Below, one piece after another: positions 4,487-63,016 of a stretch of 64,000 nt of DNA. Numbering within the stretch: position 1 is the first letter of the stretch; each line of letters begins with the position of its first letter. Under the pieces are notes generated by a model. It saw nothing but the letters and a program-made list of their open reading frames with translations. It was not told the DNA's origin and did not search any database. Source of the DNA: Solibacillus sp. FSL R7-0682 (GTDB taxonomy: Bacteria > Bacillota > Bacilli > Bacillales_A > Planococcaceae); the NCBI RefSeq assembly GCF_038005985.1, contig NZ_JBBOUI010000001.1:3492001-3556000 (forward strand), given 5' to 3'. The position numbers were made by a program, and so were the translations under genes.

Positions 4487-5728
4487 TTAATGTGTAATTG
4501 GGAGCTCAATTGTAAAGGTCGTACCTTTGCCTAGTTCACTGTTTACAGTAATTTGCCCATTATGTAGGTGTAAAATTACTTTAGCAATTGACAAACCAAG
4601 ACCAGTTCCCGATTTGTTACGGATTTTATCCGCTCTGTAAAATCTTTCAAAAATATAAGGTAAATCGTCTTCCGCAATTCCAATCCCTGTATCTGCTACT
4701 TCAATTTTGATAAATGATCCTTCTTTTTTTGCATAAACTGAAATCGTACCTTCACTCGTATAGGTCACTGCGTTTTTCAATAAAATATAGAGCAGTTCCT
4801 CGATTAAAATCTTATCGGCTTCAATCGTTAATTCCTCCGCTACATCCAATCTAAACGATAAATGAGGTACGGTTTTAGCAAAGCGCCGTGTTCGCTGAAT
4901 TAATAAGTTCGAGATATCTACAGGTGTGATATTTAATTCAATTTGATTTTGATCAGAACGTGTTAAATAAAGTAAGCTCGAGAGCATTTCATTCATATAG
5001 TTCGCTTCGTTTTTCATATCGTCCATCGTATCACGCGGATAATCGTTTCCGTTTTGCTGCATTTGTTCTTCGAATAATTCAAGTGAGCTATACAAAACAG
5101 CGAGCGGCGTTCGTAATTCATGGGAGGCATTCGCCACAAATTGACGTTGTTGTTCGTAGGATGTTTGAATTGGCTGCATGGATTTTTTCGCTAAAAAGTA
5201 ACTTAGTACCGCGATGCCAATACTCGAGATAATTAATAACGCAATGAGTAGTAGTAATACATTATCAAGCAGTTCCTCATATGTCGTTACATTTTGGCCG
5301 ACTGCAATATAACCAAGTGTTTCACCATGAATCCGAATTGCCTGCGTCATGACAAGCAATGTTTCCCCTTCATAGTCGTAGCGCTCAAATTGCTTCGTCT
5401 CTACGGGTTGTAAGTTTTTTTGTAGCTCCTTATTAAACCCCTCATGCAATTCTTCGCCATATAAAATTTCTAAATCCTTTGAAATGACATAGAAGAAACT
5501 CACTTTGTCTACTTCTAATTCAAAACGATTGGGCGGCTTTGGTGGCCCGTTGTATACATTGAAAAACTTATCGGTATTATTCGCTGCATAGCTTTCAACC
5601 ATATTTTGCTGAACTTGATTTAGAATCTGGGCGAACGAAAAATAAAATACTGTTAAAAATAAAACAAGAAAGATGAAATAACTAATCGCATTCATCCATG
5701 TGAGTCGCATTTTGATTTTTTTAAACAT
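4487..5728 (-). CDS. Membrane sensor histidine kinase
   Basis: This 413-residue kinase has transmembrane helices at about 12-35 and 154-180 around a ~115-residue extracellular sensor region. The dimerisation/phosphoacceptor helix has ASHELRTPL with the phosphorylated His near residue 203. The ATPase domain shows an N box ([14 protein letters not shown]), G1 (VADTGIGI), an F box ([10 protein letters not shown]) and G2 ([11 protein letters not shown]). It has no obvious HAMP domain beyond a short linker. Its start codon overlaps the stop of the regulator gene by one base (TAATG), so the two are translationally coupled. The signal is unknown; the neighbouring cotH operon is the obvious candidate target. 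Confidence 0.93.
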
Positions 5729-56795: not shown

Positions 56796-57182
56796 TTGAA
56801 GAAGCAAGTACACGTAGTTGGCGCAATCATTGAAAACGAGGTAGGCGACATTTATTGTGCACTTCGTAGTCCGCAAATGTCTTTGCCTAACTATTGGGAA
56901 TTTCCAGGTGGGAAGATCGAGCATGGTGAAACTCCACAGCAGGCATTATATAGAGAAATATTAGAGGAATTTGCTTGTGAAATATTAGTTGGTGAAAAAG
57001 TAGAAGATACGACTTATGATTACGGGAATTTTATTGTTCGTCTAGAAACTTACATGTCTATTATTAAAAGCGGGGCACCTATTGCTTTAGAACATGCCGA
57101 AGCAAAATGGGTAAAACGTGAATTATTACATACGTTAAATTTTGCACCTGCAGATATTCCAGCAGTAAAAAAAATAATGTAA
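56796..57182 (+). CDS. Nudix hydrolase (MutT-like)
   Basis: The 128-residue protein has the Nudix box GGKIEHGETPQQALYREIL followed by EE, with the catalytic glutamates (E54, E57, E58); the usual Gly after EE is Ala. An N-terminal VVGAIIENEVGDIYCALRS starts the fold. It may hydrolyse oxidised or modified nucleoside triphosphates. The TTG start has a weak ribosome site. It is the first gene of an operon with the helicase 24 nt downstream, which suggests a defence-related rather than purely sanitising role. Confidence 0.85.
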   Translation: MKKQVHVVGAIIENEVGDIYCALRSPQMSLPNYWEFPGGKIEHGETPQQALYREILEEFACEILVGEKVEDTTYDYGNFIVRLETYMSIIKSGAPIALEHAEAKWVKRELLHTLNFAPADIPAVKKIM

Positions 57183-57206
57183 CAATTTATTTAAGGTGGG
57201 AAATTA

Positions 57207-60083
57207 ATGGAGCAGTTAATTCAGAAACTAGAAAACTCCTTACATAAGGGATTTATCGATCAACATAAAGCCGTTTCCTCTCATTTCAAGCCCAAATTAT
57301 TATCAAATAAAGCTCACGAGAATGTCTTAACAACATTACTTCAAGAGCTAAAAACATGTAAAACATTCACCTTCTCTGTCGCTTTTATAACTGAGGGTGG
57401 CCTCGCTACCTTAAAAACAATGCTTTATGATCTTCAGAAAAAAGGAATAAGCGGACGAATTTTGACTTCGACTTTCTTGAATTTTAATCAGCCGAAAATG
57501 TTTAAAGAACTACTTAAAATAACGAATGTAGAAGTTCGAATTACTGATATTAAAGGGTTCCATTCAAAGGGTTATATTTTTGAACACGAAGATTATTATT
57601 CATTAATTGTGGGAAGCTCAAATTTAACGGATAGTGCATTAAAAGCAAATTTCGAATGGAATGTTTATTTAAATTCCCTTGAAAACGGTGAAGTGATACA
57701 ACACTTTAAAAACCAATTCGATCAAGCTTGGGATACTGCGACCTTATTAAATCCGGACTGGATTAGGCAATATAAAATCCAATATGAAGCAAGTATACAG
57801 CAACCATCAAAAGTTGCTGCTCCTCCTTTATATATGACAAATCCCCTAAAGGAGAGCTTACTGATTCAGCCTAATAAAATGCAATCGACTGCGTTGGAAC
57901 AGATTGCATTATTACGACAATCTGGTGCCAAAAAAGGGCTAATTGTTTCGGCAACAGGAACAGGAAAGACTTATTTATCTGCCTTTGATGTACGAAATGC
58001 CGCACCAAAACGTATGTTATTCATTGTACATCGTGAGCAAATCTTAAAAAAAGCGATGGCTGATTATCGAAAAATTTTATTAGGTAACGAAAAAGATTAT
58101 GGAATTTTATCTGGCACTTCAAAGAATATGGAAGCACGCTATTTATTTGCTACTATACAAACGATCTCGAGTGATAAATACTTAACGTACTTTAATAAGG
58201 ACCATTTTGATTATGTACTAATTGATGAGGTTCATAGAGCAGGTGCCGAGTCCTATTTAAAGATCATTAATTATTTTGAACCGCATTTTTTATTAGGTAT
58301 GACAGCCACACCTGAACGTACTGATAATTTCAATATTTACGAGCTATTTGATTATAATATTGCCTATGAAATTCGTTTGCAGGAAGCACTAGCAGAAGAT
58401 ATGCTTTGTCCCTTTCATTATTTCGGTGTAACCGATTATGTGTTAGATGGAGAGCTCATCAATGAAACTTCAGACTTACAGAAACTAATTGTTAAAGAAC
58501 GGATAGATCATATCATTGATAAAATTTCATACTATGGCTTTTCTGGAAAACTAGTTAAAGGGTTAATGTTCTGTAGCTCTAAGACTGAGGCACGGGAACT
58601 ATCCAACATTTTAAATACTCGAGGTTTTAAAACATGCGCTTTAACTGGTGAAGATCCACAGGATCTACGTGAATCAGCTATTGAAAAGCTCCGTACCGGA
58701 GAATTGGATTATATTTTAACTGTTGATATTTTTAACGAGGGTATAGATATTCCATTTTTAAATCAAATTGTCATGTTACGTCAAACCCAATCAAGCATTA
58801 TATTTATTCAGCAGCTTGGCCGTGGTTTACGGAAACATGATGATAAAGAATATGTTACAATCATTGATTTCATCGGAAACTACAAAAATAACTATTTGAT
58901 CCCAATCGCTCTTTCTGGTGATAAAACAATGAATAAAGATAATGTTCGACGTAATACGGTAAACACCAATTATATTCAAGGCGTTTCAACAATTAACTTT
59001 GAAGAGGTTGCCAAAAAGCAAATTTTTGAGGCAATTAAAAATACAAAGTTATCTACTTTTAAAACATTAAAAGAAAGCTATTTTGAAGTAAAGAATCGAA
59101 TCGGGAGAATCCCCTTTTTAAAAGATTTTATTCAGCAACATTCTCTTGATCCAGAAGTAATAATCAGCTATAAAGATACTCCTACTTATTATCACTTTTT
59201 AATAAAAGTTGGAGAAGACATTGCCCCATTAACTGACTATGAAAAAGCAATACTTTCTCTCATCGGAAAAGATTTTTTATCAGGAAAACGAATTCATGAG
59301 CTATTACTATTGGAGTTAATTTTAAAAAATGATTCCATTTTTGAACAAGATTTCGTAAATCAATTACGAGAACTAAACGCTTATGTCGATGACGAGACGC
59401 TTCGTGGAATTGAAAATGTTTTTTCTTTAAACTTTTTCGTAGAGGTCGACCGCAAAAAGTTTGGTGGAAAGCCTCTAATTATAAAATCTAATAATAGCTA
59501 TACTTTCAATGATGAACTTCAAATATCACTACGAGATGAAAATTTTAAACAATATTTCGTAGATCTCTTAGAATGTGCCTTTATAAAAAATAAAAAGTAC
59601 AATAATGCGGATCCTTTCAAGCTATATGAAAAGTATTCTCGACGAGAAGTGTGCCGTATCCTAAATTGGGACAAGAATGAGGAAGGTACGTTGAATGGTG
59701 GAAGACCAAAAAACGGGGACTTTCCGATATTTGTAAACTATCATAAAGATGTTGACGGTACCTCAGAAACAAAATATATGGATGAATTTTTATCTTCAGA
59801 TACATTCAAATGGTGTTCTACAAAAAACCGGTATATGCATTCAAAAGAGATGCAAATTCTCATTAACTCTGTAGAAGAAGGTACTAATGTTTTATTATTT
59901 GTAAAAAAAGATAATGGAGAAGGAAAAGATTTTTATTATCTTGGATCAAGTGCAGTAAATCCCACTAGTGCCAAACCAGATAAGCTTTTAGATAAAGGTA
60001 AATACTATCCTGTTGTCACGATGGAAATGGTATTAGAACAACCAATTCAATCCGATATCTATCATTATTTAGTAGAAGAATAA
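57207..60083 (+). CDS. PLD-nuclease / superfamily 2 helicase / DUF3427 protein
   Basis: The 958-residue protein has a phospholipase-D-type nuclease domain at about 35-190 (HxK at H119/K121 in GFHSKGYIF, partner GSSNLTD). A superfamily 2 helicase follows: Walker A SATGTGKT at 248-256, DEVH at 340-343, MTATPER at 365-371, and the late motif QQLGRGLR. The C-terminal DUF3427-type region contains GRPKNGDFPIFVNYHKD and a WCSTKNRYM aromatic/basic patch. It would degrade or unwind nucleic acid in an ATP-driven way. Preceded by a Nudix gene and convergent with an EVE-HNH gene, it fits an antiphage or restriction role (inference). The ATG follows AAGGTGG. Confidence 0.88.
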   Translation: MEQLIQKLENSLHKGFIDQHKAVSSHFKPKLLSNKAHENVLTTLLQELKTCKTFTFSVAFITEGGLATLKTMLYDLQKKGISGRILTSTFLNFNQPKMFKELLKITNVEVRITDIKGFHSKGYIFEHEDYYSLIVGSSNLTDSALKANFEWNVYLNSLENGEVIQHFKNQFDQAWDTATLLNPDWIRQYKIQYEASIQQPSKVAAPPLYMTNPLKESLLIQPNKMQSTALEQIALLRQSGAKKGLIVSATGTGKTYLSAFDVRNAAPKRMLFIVHREQILKKAMADYRKILLGNEKDYGILSGTSKNMEARYLFATIQTISSDKYLTYFNKDHFDYVLIDEVHRAGAESYLKIINYFEPHFLLGMTATPERTDNFNIYELFDYNIAYEIRLQEALAEDMLCPFHYFGVTDYVLDGELINETSDLQKLIVKERIDHIIDKISYYGFSGKLVKGLMFCSSKTEARELSNILNTRGFKTCALTGEDPQDLRESAIEKLRTGELDYILTVDIFNEGIDIPFLNQIVMLRQTQSSIIFIQQLGRGLRKHDDKEYVTIIDFIGNYKNNYLIPIALSGDKTMNKDNVRRNTVNTNYIQGVSTINFEEVAKKQIFEAIKNTKLSTFKTLKESYFEVKNRIGRIPFLKDFIQQHSLDPEVIISYKDTPTYYHFLIKVGEDIAPLTDYEKAILSLIGKDFLSGKRIHELLLLELILKNDSIFEQDFVNQLRELNAYVDDETLRGIENVFSLNFFVEVDRKKFGGKPLIIKSNNSYTFNDELQISLRDENFKQYFVDLLECAFIKNKKYNNADPFKLYEKYSRREVCRILNWDKNEEGTLNGGRPKNGDFPIFVNYHKDVDGTSETKYMDEFLSSDTFKWCSTKNRYMHSKEMQILINSVEEGTNVLLFVKKDNGEGKDFYYLGSSAVNPTSAKPDKLLDKGKYYPVVTMEMVLEQPIQSDIYHYLVEE

Positions 60084-60089
60084 TCAAAT

Positions 60090-60128
60090 GAGCCACATTA
60101 AAAAGTAAACTCACTTTCACTGTGGCTC
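60090..60128. terminator. Hairpin between the convergent helicase and HNH genes
   Basis: The stem GAGCCACA / TGTGGCTC has a 23-nt loop. It is a probable shared terminator; the T-tracts are weak. Confidence 0.5.
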
Positions 60129-60135
60129 TCTCTAA

Positions 60136-61065
60136 TTAGTCCTGCTCTCGTTTATTTTTATTATCTTTAAAAATATTTCGCTTATGCCATTTAAAATACT
60201 TTTTATTTTCTTCTACACGACTAACGCGCATCTTATCATGAATACTAAATTTCACATAATCTATTGATTCAATTTCAGATGAAATATGAATTTTTCCTGT
60301 TCCATCAAATGTAATATAACCTTGGTCGTATAATACATCATGATTGCTACATAGCAAGATTCCGTTATATGGATCTAATCGTTCTTCATCTGTTGCATCC
60401 TTCCATGGCTTAGCATGGCTAGCTCTTAGCAAAGCTGGTAATTCAATACCACATAATGCACATTGATTGTTCCATAATGGAGCAAGTTGTTTTTTAAACT
60501 TTTGTTGTCCTTTACGAATTTTCACTTTTGCTTCGGCTTCTGTTTCGATGAGAACAGGTGCTAACGTGTTACGCTCCTTTTGAGCAATCATTCCAATTGC
60601 GAACTCTAGCTGCTCTTCATTTTCTTCGTAAATATTGTCATCACCAATAAGTTCTAATAATTTTAATGCGAGCATTTCATTACAAGGGTATAAATAGCCT
60701 TGGTTACCGTCTCCATTTTGCTGAAACGCAGAATATTTAATTGGCAGTAATGGCTGGATGCTTTCAAAGTGATTCTTAATATTTAAAGGTACTGATAGCT
60801 CTTCATACGCTGACTGAAACATATGGCCGATTTCTTCAGAACTAATTGCTGGATTTTCACCTTCATAGGCATCCTCCTGTGCAACACTAATTGCAATAAT
60901 GTCCCCTTTTACATAATGAAATAGGACATCCCCTTTCCTTACTTCATTCATACGTTCCCAAGAATGTGGTGTTTGCCCACTATTATCATAAATCGAACAC
61001 CAAACAATATTCGCCAACTTCGCTTCTTCATAGGTTTTTCCTTGCATTACAATAAAAAAATTCAT
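60136..61065 (-). CDS. EVE/PUA-like-HNH endonuclease (type IV restriction candidate)
   Basis: The 309-residue protein has an N-terminal PUA/EVE-like domain (to about 110; RKGDVLFHYVKGDIIAISVA, with aromatic residues that could read a modified base) and a C-terminal HNH nuclease with zinc cysteines C202 and C205 (CALCGIELPALLRASH), H217 and CSNHDVLYD around residue 242. EVE-HNH enzymes cleave DNA carrying modified cytosines. It is convergent with the Nudix-helicase operon. The start has GGGTG upstream. Specificity is unknown. Confidence 0.87.
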   Translation of the reverse strand: MNFFIVMQGKTYEEAKLANIVWCSIYDNSGQTPHSWERMNEVRKGDVLFHYVKGDIIAISVAQEDAYEGENPAISSEEIGHMFQSAYEELSVPLNIKNHFESIQPLLPIKYSAFQQNGDGNQGYLYPCNEMLALKLLELIGDDNIYEENEEQLEFAIGMIAQKERNTLAPVLIETEAEAKVKIRKGQQKFKKQLAPLWNNQCALCGIELPALLRASHAKPWKDATDEERLDPYNGILLCSNHDVLYDQGYITFDGTGKIHISSEIESIDYVKFSIHDKMRVSRVEENKKYFKWHKRNIFKDNKNKREQD

Positions 61066-61182
61066 AAGTACACCCTTATTTTCGTTGTTTTAGTTATTTT
61101 ATCATTTTTCTTGCAAGGGGTTGTACAGATTGGATTCTATTTCCGCATTAAATTTCGCCTCTCGAAAAACCCCCTCTTTGAA

Positions 61183-61191
61183 TGCTATAAT
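61183..61191 (+). promoter_or_regulatory. Extended -10 promoter of the ABC exporter
   Basis: TGCTATAAT is a perfect extended -10 element (TG-N-TATAAT). The -35 region is weak. Start of transcription would be near 61198, giving a ~115-nt leader. Confidence 0.6.
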
Positions 61192-61258
61192 ACAAAAGAT
61201 GACATTTGTAAAATTCTGACGTATATTAGCGTCGGAGTTTGTACTGGAGAAATTACGA

Positions 61259-61285
61259 ATGTTAGAGCAGCATCTTGCTATATGA
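61259..61285 (+). CDS. Candidate 8-codon leader ORF (MLEQHLAI)
   Basis: A short ORF with its own site GGAGA (spacing 9) lies wholly in the leader of the ABC exporter. Its first codons form one arm of the hairpin at 61260-61299, while the other arm ends just before the exporter ribosome site. This is the layout of translation-attenuated drug-resistance genes. Chance is possible because the ORF is very short. Confidence 0.4.
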   Translation: MLEQHLAI

Positions 61286-61299
61286 AATTCGCTCTAACA
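61260..61299 (+). promoter_or_regulatory. Leader hairpin upstream of the ABC exporter
   Basis: TGTTAGAGC pairs with GCTCTAACA (9 bp) around a 22-nt loop, ending 14 bases before the exporter ATG. A further hairpin, CTGAC/GTCGG-type at about 61216-61236, lies upstream. Together they look like a cis-regulatory leader. Confidence 0.55.
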
Positions 61300-61312
61300 G
61301 AAAGGACAAATT

Positions 61313-63016
61313 ATGCTAGCTAGATTTTTTACGTACTATAAGCCGCATAAGAGGCTCTTCATTATCGACTTTTCGAGTGCGGTATTTGTGGCTGTTTTAG
61401 AGCTTTTATTCCCGCTGGCTGTACAATGGTTTATTGACGACCTGCTGCCGACAAATGACTGGGAAATGATTACGAAAATCAGTGCCCTTCTATTATTAAC
61501 GTACATTTTAAGTACTGCGATGAACTTTATCGTCAACTATTTAGGGCATAAGCTCGGGGTCAATATTGAAACCGATATGCGTCAGCAATTATTCAACCAT
61601 GTACAGCGTCAGCCATATACGTTTTTCGATAATATGAAAACTGGGCATTTAATGAGTCGGATTACGAACGATTTATTTGATATTGGCGAGTTTGCACACC
61701 ATGGGCCTGAGGATTTATTTATTGCGATGATGACCTTTATCGGGGCATTTACGATTATGTTCAATATTAATGCGACATTAGCCACGATTATTTTAGTCTT
61801 TGTACCGTTTTTAATTGCGGTTATGTATTGGAGTAATAAACGCATGAAAAAGGGTTGGAGCGTGATGTATACAGAGATCGCTAATGTAAATGGTCGCGTT
61901 GAAGATAGCTTTTCTGGGATACGCGTTGTGAAATCTTTTACAAATGAGGAACATGAAAAGAAGCTTTTTAAGAAGCAAAACGCACTGTTCCGTAAGGCAA
62001 AAATTTATGCCTACAAAGTAATGGCGGGGACACATTCAAGTATTTATATTTTAACTCGCCTATTAACACTTCTTGTACTTGTTGTCGGTGCTTGGCTTTC
62101 TTTCAATGGCCAGCTTAGCTACGGAGAATTTGCGAGCTTTATTTTATTTACAAACGTACTCATTAAGCCAATTGATAAGATTAGTGCGTTACTTGAATTG
62201 TATCCAAAGGGAATGGCAGGTTTTAAGCGATTCTGCGATTTACTCGATCAGGAGCCAACGATTGTCGATCGCTCAAATGCAAAAGCAGTAGATCAATTAA
62301 ACGGAGACATTGCCTTCCATAATGTAAGCTTTAACTATTCGGATAGTAAACGAGTGTTGAACAATATTTCGTTCCACGTCCCTGCTGGGAAAACAGTCGC
62401 TTTCGTTGGACCATCTGGTTCAGGAAAGACAACTATTAGTTCATTGATACCCCGTTTCTATGATGTAACGGATGGTACAATTACAATCGATGGCAATGAC
62501 ATTCGAAATATTACCCAAGAATCATTGCGCAAGCAAATTGGTACCGTGCAGCAGGATGTGTTCCTATTTACAGGTACAGTTCGTGAAAACATTGCATACG
62601 GTAGGCTTGATGCGACCTTCGAGGAAATTGTTGAGGCAGCAAAACAGGCAAATTTACTGGAGTTTATTGAACAATTACCGAATGGCTTTGAAACAGAAAT
62701 CGGGGAACGAGGACTAAAATTATCGGGTGGTCAAAAGCAGCGTCTTGCGATCGCACGTATGTTCCTAAAAAATCCGCCAATTTTAATTTTAGACGAAGCA
62801 ACATCGGCACTTGATACGGCAACAGAACGCATTATTCAGCAGTCATTAAATGATTTAGCAAAAAATCGCACTACGCTTATTATCGCGCACCGCTTAGCAA
62901 CGATTCGGGATGCGGATTATATTTTCGTAGTCACTCCAAACGGAATCGAAGAGCAAGGTACGTATGAAGAGCTTCTTAAAAAGAACGGCATTTTTGCTGG
63001 CTTGCATCATGCGTAA
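61313..63016 (+). CDS. ABC exporter (fused membrane-ATPase half-transporter, YgaD-like)
   Basis: The 567-residue half-transporter has a six-helix exporter domain (residues 1-305) and an ATPase domain with Walker A VGPSGSGKTT, Q-loop QQDVFLFTG, signature LSGGQKQRLAIAR and Walker B ILILDEATSALD, followed by the H-loop IIAHRLATI. It would act as a homodimer exporting lipids, drugs or peptides. The regulated-looking leader suggests induction by a translation-affecting compound. The substrate is unknown. Confidence 0.92.
   Translation: MLARFFTYYKPHKRLFIIDFSSAVFVAVLELLFPLAVQWFIDDLLPTNDWEMITKISALLLLTYILSTAMNFIVNYLGHKLGVNIETDMRQQLFNHVQRQPYTFFDNMKTGHLMSRITNDLFDIGEFAHHGPEDLFIAMMTFIGAFTIMFNINATLATIILVFVPFLIAVMYWSNKRMKKGWSVMYTEIANVNGRVEDSFSGIRVVKSFTNEEHEKKLFKKQNALFRKAKIYAYKVMAGTHSSIYILTRLLTLLVLVVGAWLSFNGQLSYGEFASFILFTNVLIKPIDKISALLELYPKGMAGFKRFCDLLDQEPTIVDRSNAKAVDQLNGDIAFHNVSFNYSDSKRVLNNISFHVPAGKTVAFVGPSGSGKTTISSLIPRFYDVTDGTITIDGNDIRNITQESLRKQIGTVQQDVFLFTGTVRENIAYGRLDATFEEIVEAAKQANLLEFIEQLPNGFETEIGERGLKLSGGQKQRLAIARMFLKNPPILILDEATSALDTATERIIQQSLNDLAKNRTTLIIAHRLATIRDADYIFVVTPNGIEEQGTYEELLKKNGIFAGLHHA

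Follow-up and report, generated by a model that had tools for sequence, protein, structure and literature searches.

A conserved Nudix-SauUSI gene pair beside an EVE-HNH nuclease gene in Solibacillus: a candidate nucleotide-pool guard and an exchanged reader module

Introduction

Why does the gene for a small Nudix hydrolase stand directly ahead of the gene for a large helicase-nuclease, and does a second nuclease gene that converges on them belong to the same system? These questions are raised by a three-gene locus in a 64,000-nucleotide (nt) stretch of DNA (hereafter the window) from Solibacillus sp. FSL R7-0682 (assembly GCF_038005985.1, contig NZ_JBBOUI010000001.1, positions 3,492,001 to 3,556,000 of the forward strand), which has a genome of 4.06 Mb. 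A first-pass annotation of the window read the trio as one unit of defence or genome guarding in which the Nudix enzyme removes or checks modified nucleotides. We find that the first two genes are a real, widespread and conserved unit, partly known already, and that the third gene, coding for an EVE-HNH protein, holds its position independently of them. On balance we favour, with slightly better than even confidence, a reading in which an ATP-dependent type IV restriction enzyme of the SauUSI kind has a Nudix partner of its own that would clear 5-methyl-dCTP, next to an independent EVE-HNH nuclease that would target modified cytosine.

Identity of the large protein

The 958-residue protein carries the Pfam domains PLDc_2, ResIII, Helicase_C and DUF3427 (E = 6.8e-81 for the last). 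These domains and the open reading frames (ORFs) bear out the arrangement first described, a MutT-like gene with a NUDIX domain 24 nt ahead of a PLD/SF2/DUF3427 gene. The protein matches end to end the PADLOC model mREase_IV for type IV methyl-directed restriction enzymes (E = 6.6e-292), and its residues 1–956 align colinearly with residues 1–952 of the Protein Data Bank (PDB) entry 7CLG (E = 2e-282). This structure is SauUSI from Staphylococcus aureus, in which a PLD nuclease at the N-terminus is followed by an SF2 translocase, a coupler and, at the C-terminus, an SRA reader (PMC7913695). SauUSI recognises S-5mC-N-G-S, where 5mC is 5-methylcytosine, and in an ATP-dependent reaction translocates and shreds the DNA between sites (PMC7913695). 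Judged by these alignments, the window protein is a full-length homologue of this characterised type IV restriction enzyme.

The catalytic residues are intact. Those of the PLD nuclease (H119, K121 and N139) and of the SF2 motor (K254, D340, E341, R539 and R542, covering Walker A, Walker B and the motif VI arginines) are invariant in a 168-row alignment that includes the same genes twice. The coupler and the C-terminal SRA reader (DUF3427) are also present and colinear with 7CLG to residue 956. In the reader pocket, which for SauUSI was itself modelled in the source paper, F841, D858 and W868 are kept, and M829, Y831 and I842 are replaced by N830, G832 and V843. By analogy with SauUSI, the window enzyme would read modified cytosine with its SRA domain, translocate and shred DNA. 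The possibility, raised in the first-pass annotation, that the pair is a universal housekeeping locus is rejected because a SauUSI orthologue occurs in only about 106 of the 261 genomes of our family set.

We also recorded a subfamily of PLD-SF2 helicases of about 800 residues with neither an SRA reader nor a Nudix neighbour (L094–L096, L099–L101 and L113–L118). Furthermore, two unannotated records named as S. aureus phages (OR845003.1 and OR849961.1) contain SauUSI-like sequence, which may be chromosomal carry-over.

Conservation of the Nudix-SauUSI pair

At least 95 of the 106 SauUSI orthologues tabulated in the family set have a Nudix gene within 300 nt, the distance that we took as adjacency. 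Ten could not be judged among the matches listed, a Nudix match being recorded in nine of those genomes, and the remaining one is fragmentary, its Nudix gene lying further away. Of 80 SauUSI loci drawn separately from GTDB, a few of which overlap with the family genomes, 63 had a Nudix gene within the same distance (52 upstream, 10 convergent and 1 downstream). The paired loci include Cryobacterium and Microbacterium (Actinomycetota), Methanobrevibacter, one Bacteroidetes and one Spirochaetales bin, and across relatives at the level of phyla the Nudix gene can be upstream, downstream or convergent. Such adjacency is far beyond chance. Because proximity is conserved while orientation changes, it argues for functional coupling and not for one frozen operon. 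In six genomes where no adjacent Nudix gene was seen, a Nudix protein of about 50% identity is encoded elsewhere; in one of the six (Alkalicoccus, L141) a contig end cuts the locus.

The pairing also holds in S. aureus NZ_CP077890.1, where the Nudix gene ends at 5354 and the SauUSI-like match starts at 5356. The Nudix protein encoded there matches 5X1X, a structure named 'Mutator mutT', over the 127 residues compared. Colocalisation of the two genes is already known: it was noted in a figure legend for Streptococcus (PMC7641849) and reported statistically, in 23 of 23 cases, for Streptococcus suis (PMC12813430). What is new is the tightness of the Nudix association with the cutter. The literature that we found, limited to open-licence papers and thus no proof of absence, assigns no function to the colocalisation.

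Identity and possible roles of the Nudix protein

The Nudix protein matches the PADLOC candidate PDC-S07 along its entire length (residues 1–128 of 128) and the Pfam family NUDIX_4 (Table 1). Canonical assignment to MutT or NudG was rejected, as its scores fall below the cut-offs of both the TIGR00586 (MutT) model (86.6 against 97.9 bits) and the NF007834 (PRK10546, NudG) model (84.9 against 156 bits). The protein lies near both families and is assigned to neither. Its Asp120 aligns with an Asp of NudG (2RRK) at a position where the MutT-type chain 4V14 has Asn. This Asp is kept in 127 of 131 SauUSI-linked Nudix copies, across which the catalytic residues of the Nudix box are essentially invariant. 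Escherichia coli NudG hydrolyses 5-methyl-dCTP, a reaction that MutT performs weakly (PMC3744803, PMC5389931). We hypothesise that the window protein works like NudG, and a role in handling modified nucleotides is plausible for it.

The Nudix gene is adjacent to 79 of 100 SRA-bearing helicases versus none of 17 SRA-less relatives, and in a smaller set to 16 of 27 versus none of 14 (Fisher p = 1.4e-4). Loci L040–L050, which had been chosen for an adjacent Nudix gene, are excluded from these counts; for a few relatives whose SRA scores are weak, the class depends on the threshold. We regard the tracking of the SRA reader by the Nudix gene as suggestive only.

A different role for the protein, which we consider unlikely, is that of a MutT-like cleaner of oxidised nucleotides such as 8-oxo-dGTP, linked to SauUSI through the oxidative stress or repair synthesis that results from infection or DNA shredding. 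The best-scoring PDB names for the protein are indeed mutator MutT proteins, its TIGR00586 score is near the cut-off, and orphan Nudix copies exist without SauUSI. However, Asp and not Asn occupies the aligned C-terminal position in nearly all linked copies, and the gene is never beside SRA-less relatives in our sample. Furthermore, the host genome has 26 other Nudix matches, so a general cleaner need not adjoin SauUSI.

Quite unlikely, in our estimate, is an anti-phage effector that degrades modified dNTPs made by the phage (for example, 5-hydroxymethyl-dCTP) or drains dCTP during infection and in this way complements SauUSI. A phage deprived of its modified dNTPs would be unmodified and hidden from SauUSI, and the literature found holds no phage assay of PDC-S07, although PADLOC lists it as a phage-defence candidate and a review has proposed the monitoring of nucleotide pools in defence (PMC12707154). 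Tight adjacency in many orientations could also reflect a direct, antitoxin-like regulator or inhibitor of SauUSI in which catalysis is secondary. This role is very improbable given the near-invariant catalytic residues of the Nudix copies, the SauUSI genes without a Nudix in many lactobacilli and the activity of SauUSI purified alone (PMC7913695).

A candidate mechanism of self-protection

How might a Nudix enzyme that clears 5-methyl-dCTP serve its neighbour? SauUSI acts without a protective methyltransferase, and self DNA would be safe only while it is free of 5mC at target sites. Salvage of methylated DNA could yield 5-methyl-dCTP, perhaps also 5-hydroxymethyl-dCTP, and incorporation of 5-methyl-dCTP by the polymerase would place restriction targets in the chromosome. 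Hydrolysis of these nucleotides by the Nudix enzyme would lead SauUSI to spare self DNA, so that keeping the nucleotide pool clean would double as self-protection.

Several findings weigh against this proposal. The Nudix protein misses the cut-offs of both reference models given above. It is not an obligatory partner, being absent altogether from the genomes of seven of eight Lactobacillus-group SauUSI loci and from the vicinity of 21 of the 100 SRA-bearing loci. An independent-pairs test of the Nudix-SRA association, with few evolutionary events to draw on, gave 1.6 for and 0 against, which is not significant. In one genus (g8; L207–L212 and L219) an orphan Nudix of the PDC-S07 type occupies a conserved metabolic site unrelated to defence. 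Finally, the host genome has several C5-methyltransferase genes (G000:C1:739705-741975, C1:1535746-1537065 and C2:9603-11764) despite two nucleases of the 5mC type; 5mC as such must therefore be tolerated outside the target context.

The orphan Nudix loci were also checked for neighbouring 5mC-dependent nucleases, which were not the rule; most of these loci are the conserved metabolic site. Elsewhere a C5-methyltransferase gene is nearby in two, one has a DUF2357-PDDEXK_7 gene and others have M28/TPR genes. The neighbour of the orphan gene in L207 is a FAD-binding/BBE oxidase gene. The two with the C5-cytosine methyltransferase gene are in G248 and G241, which lack SauUSI; there it lies some 1.4 kb or less from the Nudix gene (identified by Pfam in L217 and by membership of the same sequence cluster in L215). 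In L226 (5201-10907) it stands amid genes for an M28 peptidase, a TPR protein, a Schlafen-type helicase (PDC-S41) and an HNH mREase_IV-like protein, possibly a separate defence cassette.

In staphylococci, SauUSI is one of the main barriers to transformation and gene transfer. If the widespread Nudix enzyme shields its host from the SauUSI beside it, this would answer how a methyltransferase-free system avoids self-attack. PDC-S07 and the deposited 'MutT' structure 5X1X would then have a function, and the occurrence of the pair in so many genomes a reason.

Exchange of the reader module

The recognition end of SauUSI is not fixed. Among 139 close orthologues, a count that includes some genes twice, position 832 is Tyr in 103 (reader type YGY) and Gly in 36 (type NGG), and both types occur within Solibacillus and in two other genera. 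Proteins from G159 and G152 are 96% identical in the nuclease and 99% in the motor versus 50–51% in the coupler and reader. At the DNA level, G163 and G159 share about 95% identity across the Nudix gene, the front of the SauUSI gene, the EVE-HNH gene and an ABC-transporter gene versus about 56% over some 900 nt of coupler and reader. The exchanged region corresponds to window positions 59150–60080, has breakpoints at the nucleotide level and was recorded for L063, L070 and L074. Reader type changes eight times on the motor tree versus once on the reader tree. An approximately unbiased (AU) test on the reader data rejected a single Solibacillus clade (p = 7e-5), a group that was set by genus in a test that came after the observation. 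The coupler-SRA reader module is thus exchanged between strains.

Because the Nudix protein remains 96% identical across the swap, the exchange suggests that the modified base is the same for the two reader types, probably in different sequence contexts. Natural reader exchange in SauUSI is a new point; our literature search found only designed, and no natural, domain swaps in modification-dependent enzymes (PMC12707154). With such exchange, homology to SauUSI does not by itself establish specificity, a point of importance for matching methylation when strains are engineered and for forecasts of phage restriction. We tentatively put forward a wider picture, which we judge somewhat short of an even chance: a two-gene restriction system in which pool cleaning replaces the protective methyltransferase and recognition is the task of a cassette that is exchanged. 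Two or more reader types, YGY and NGG among them, would be recombined between strains and genera, and lineages would switch targets while keeping the motor, the nuclease and the Nudix guard.

The EVE-HNH gene and its site

The product of the third gene aligns end to end (residues 1–300) with VcaM4I (6YEX), an EVE-HNH nuclease that flips 5mC and 5-hydroxymethylcytosine (5hmC) (PMC7897488). A Pfam scan matched HNH_2 (E = 1.3e-12; motifs SHAKPW and NGILLCSNHDxLYDxG) and gave no EVE match. Of the PUA/EVE-like-HNH gene first described, the convergent ORF and the HNH domain stand as such; the EVE assignment comes from the alignment to VcaM4I. The product is a probable VcaM4I-like EVE-HNH protein, homologous to a 5mC/5hmC-dependent nuclease.

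This gene adjoins the pair in 16 of the 66 family genomes that have both SauUSI and a full EVE-HNH gene (11 Solibacillus and 5 genomes of three other genera) and lies apart in the other 50. It is beside the pair in 1 of the 80 GTDB loci, again from Solibacillus. In G150, G155 and G162 it is at its site although the pair is missing, and in Solibacillus it stays near an ABC-transporter gene with or without the pair, sometimes with a cassette in between. The place of the pair is occupied in G155 by a PbeA-like PLD-helicase cassette, whereas G150 has PDC-M43B-like genes across from it, beyond the EVE-HNH gene. The site is a variable defence hotspot of Solibacillus, with the EVE-HNH gene as resident and the Nudix-SauUSI pair as a frequent neighbour. 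This setting and the homology of both nucleases to modification-dependent restriction enzymes uphold the defence role first suggested for the helicase and the EVE-HNH protein. Solibacillus cassettes at the EVE-HNH/ABC site (L061–L075; ABC gene at window position 61313) include a PbeA-like PLD helicase (L066), PDC-M43B-like genes (L061) and a REase_II/PD-T4-1-like gene pair (L064).

The SauUSI and EVE-HNH families both sense modified cytosine, and because they do, the two nucleases together would provide type IV restriction in two layers. That all three genes form one defence system is scarcely credible and is largely refuted by the recurrence counts and by the genomes that keep the EVE-HNH gene without the pair, despite the adjacency seen in several genera and the modified base sensed by both families; the trio as one unit is rejected.

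Locus layout

The features of the locus are collected in Table 1. The spacer between the Nudix and SauUSI genes contains AAGGTGG, which resembles a ribosome-binding site. The hairpin first noted as the only element between the convergent genes is a strong fold in the 52-nt gap, with an 8-bp outer stem and −15.7 kcal/mol (z −5.1). A terminator scan of this gap called no consensus terminator with a T run, and a promoter scan gave a result no better than shuffled sequence. A 119-residue ORF on the plus strand (60964–61323) overlaps the first part of the EVE-HNH gene in antisense, reaches the ABC gene and is most likely spurious.

Table 1. Features of the Nudix-SauUSI/EVE-HNH locus (window coordinates)
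Feature	Position	Strand	Basis
Nudix hydrolase, PDC-S07 type, SauUSI partner; TTG start; 128 residues	56796..57182	+	PDC-S07 E 2e-49 over full length; NUDIX_4 E 9.8e-14; conserved Nudix box and D120
SauUSI-family type IV restriction enzyme (PLD nuclease, SF2 motor, coupler, SRA reader); ATG start; 958 residues	57207..60083	+	mREase_IV E 6.6e-292; 7CLG E 2e-282, colinear; catalytic residues invariant
SauUSI SRA target-recognition domain, 'NGG' reader type, residues 808-956	59628..60074	+	7CLG alignment; reader types and exchange
Terminator-like hairpin between convergent genes, without consensus T run	60090..60128		Fold z -5.1; not called in terminator scan
EVE-HNH modification-dependent endonuclease homologue, independent hotspot resident; 309 residues	60136..61065	-	6YEX E 1.4e-39 over residues 1-300; HNH_2; position independent of pair

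Comparison with known systems

The window enzyme resembles SauUSI of S. aureus (7CLG, PMC7913695) in its colinear full length, its four modules and its catalytic residues. It differs in carrying a reader of the NGG type, which is found in about one quarter of close orthologues and is swapped among strains. The EVE-HNH protein likewise equals VcaM4I (6YEX, PMC7897488) in length and architecture and keeps four of the eight named pocket residues, the equivalents of T11, W22, Q128 and Y130 (the last two listed also as Q122 and Y124). The others find no match: E15 and P24 of VcaM4I, for example, are Ala and Ser in the window protein, and W82 has no aligned partner.

For the Nudix protein, PDC-S07 and the S. 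aureus 5X1X protein belong to the same Nudix family, and in S. aureus the Nudix gene immediately precedes that of a SauUSI homologue; 5X1X, however, bears no label beyond that of a mutator MutT protein, with no function assigned in the literature found. NudG (Orf135) of E. coli is a related Nudix enzyme with Asp at the aligned C-terminal position, yet the window protein scores well under the cut-off of the NudG model. We know of no restriction-gene partner of NudG. Type I restriction systems have exchangeable specificity domains. The SauUSI case is analogous in that the reader is swapped while motor and nuclease stay, and unlike them in that the exchange takes place inside one polypeptide chain, that of a type IV enzyme which has no methyltransferase.

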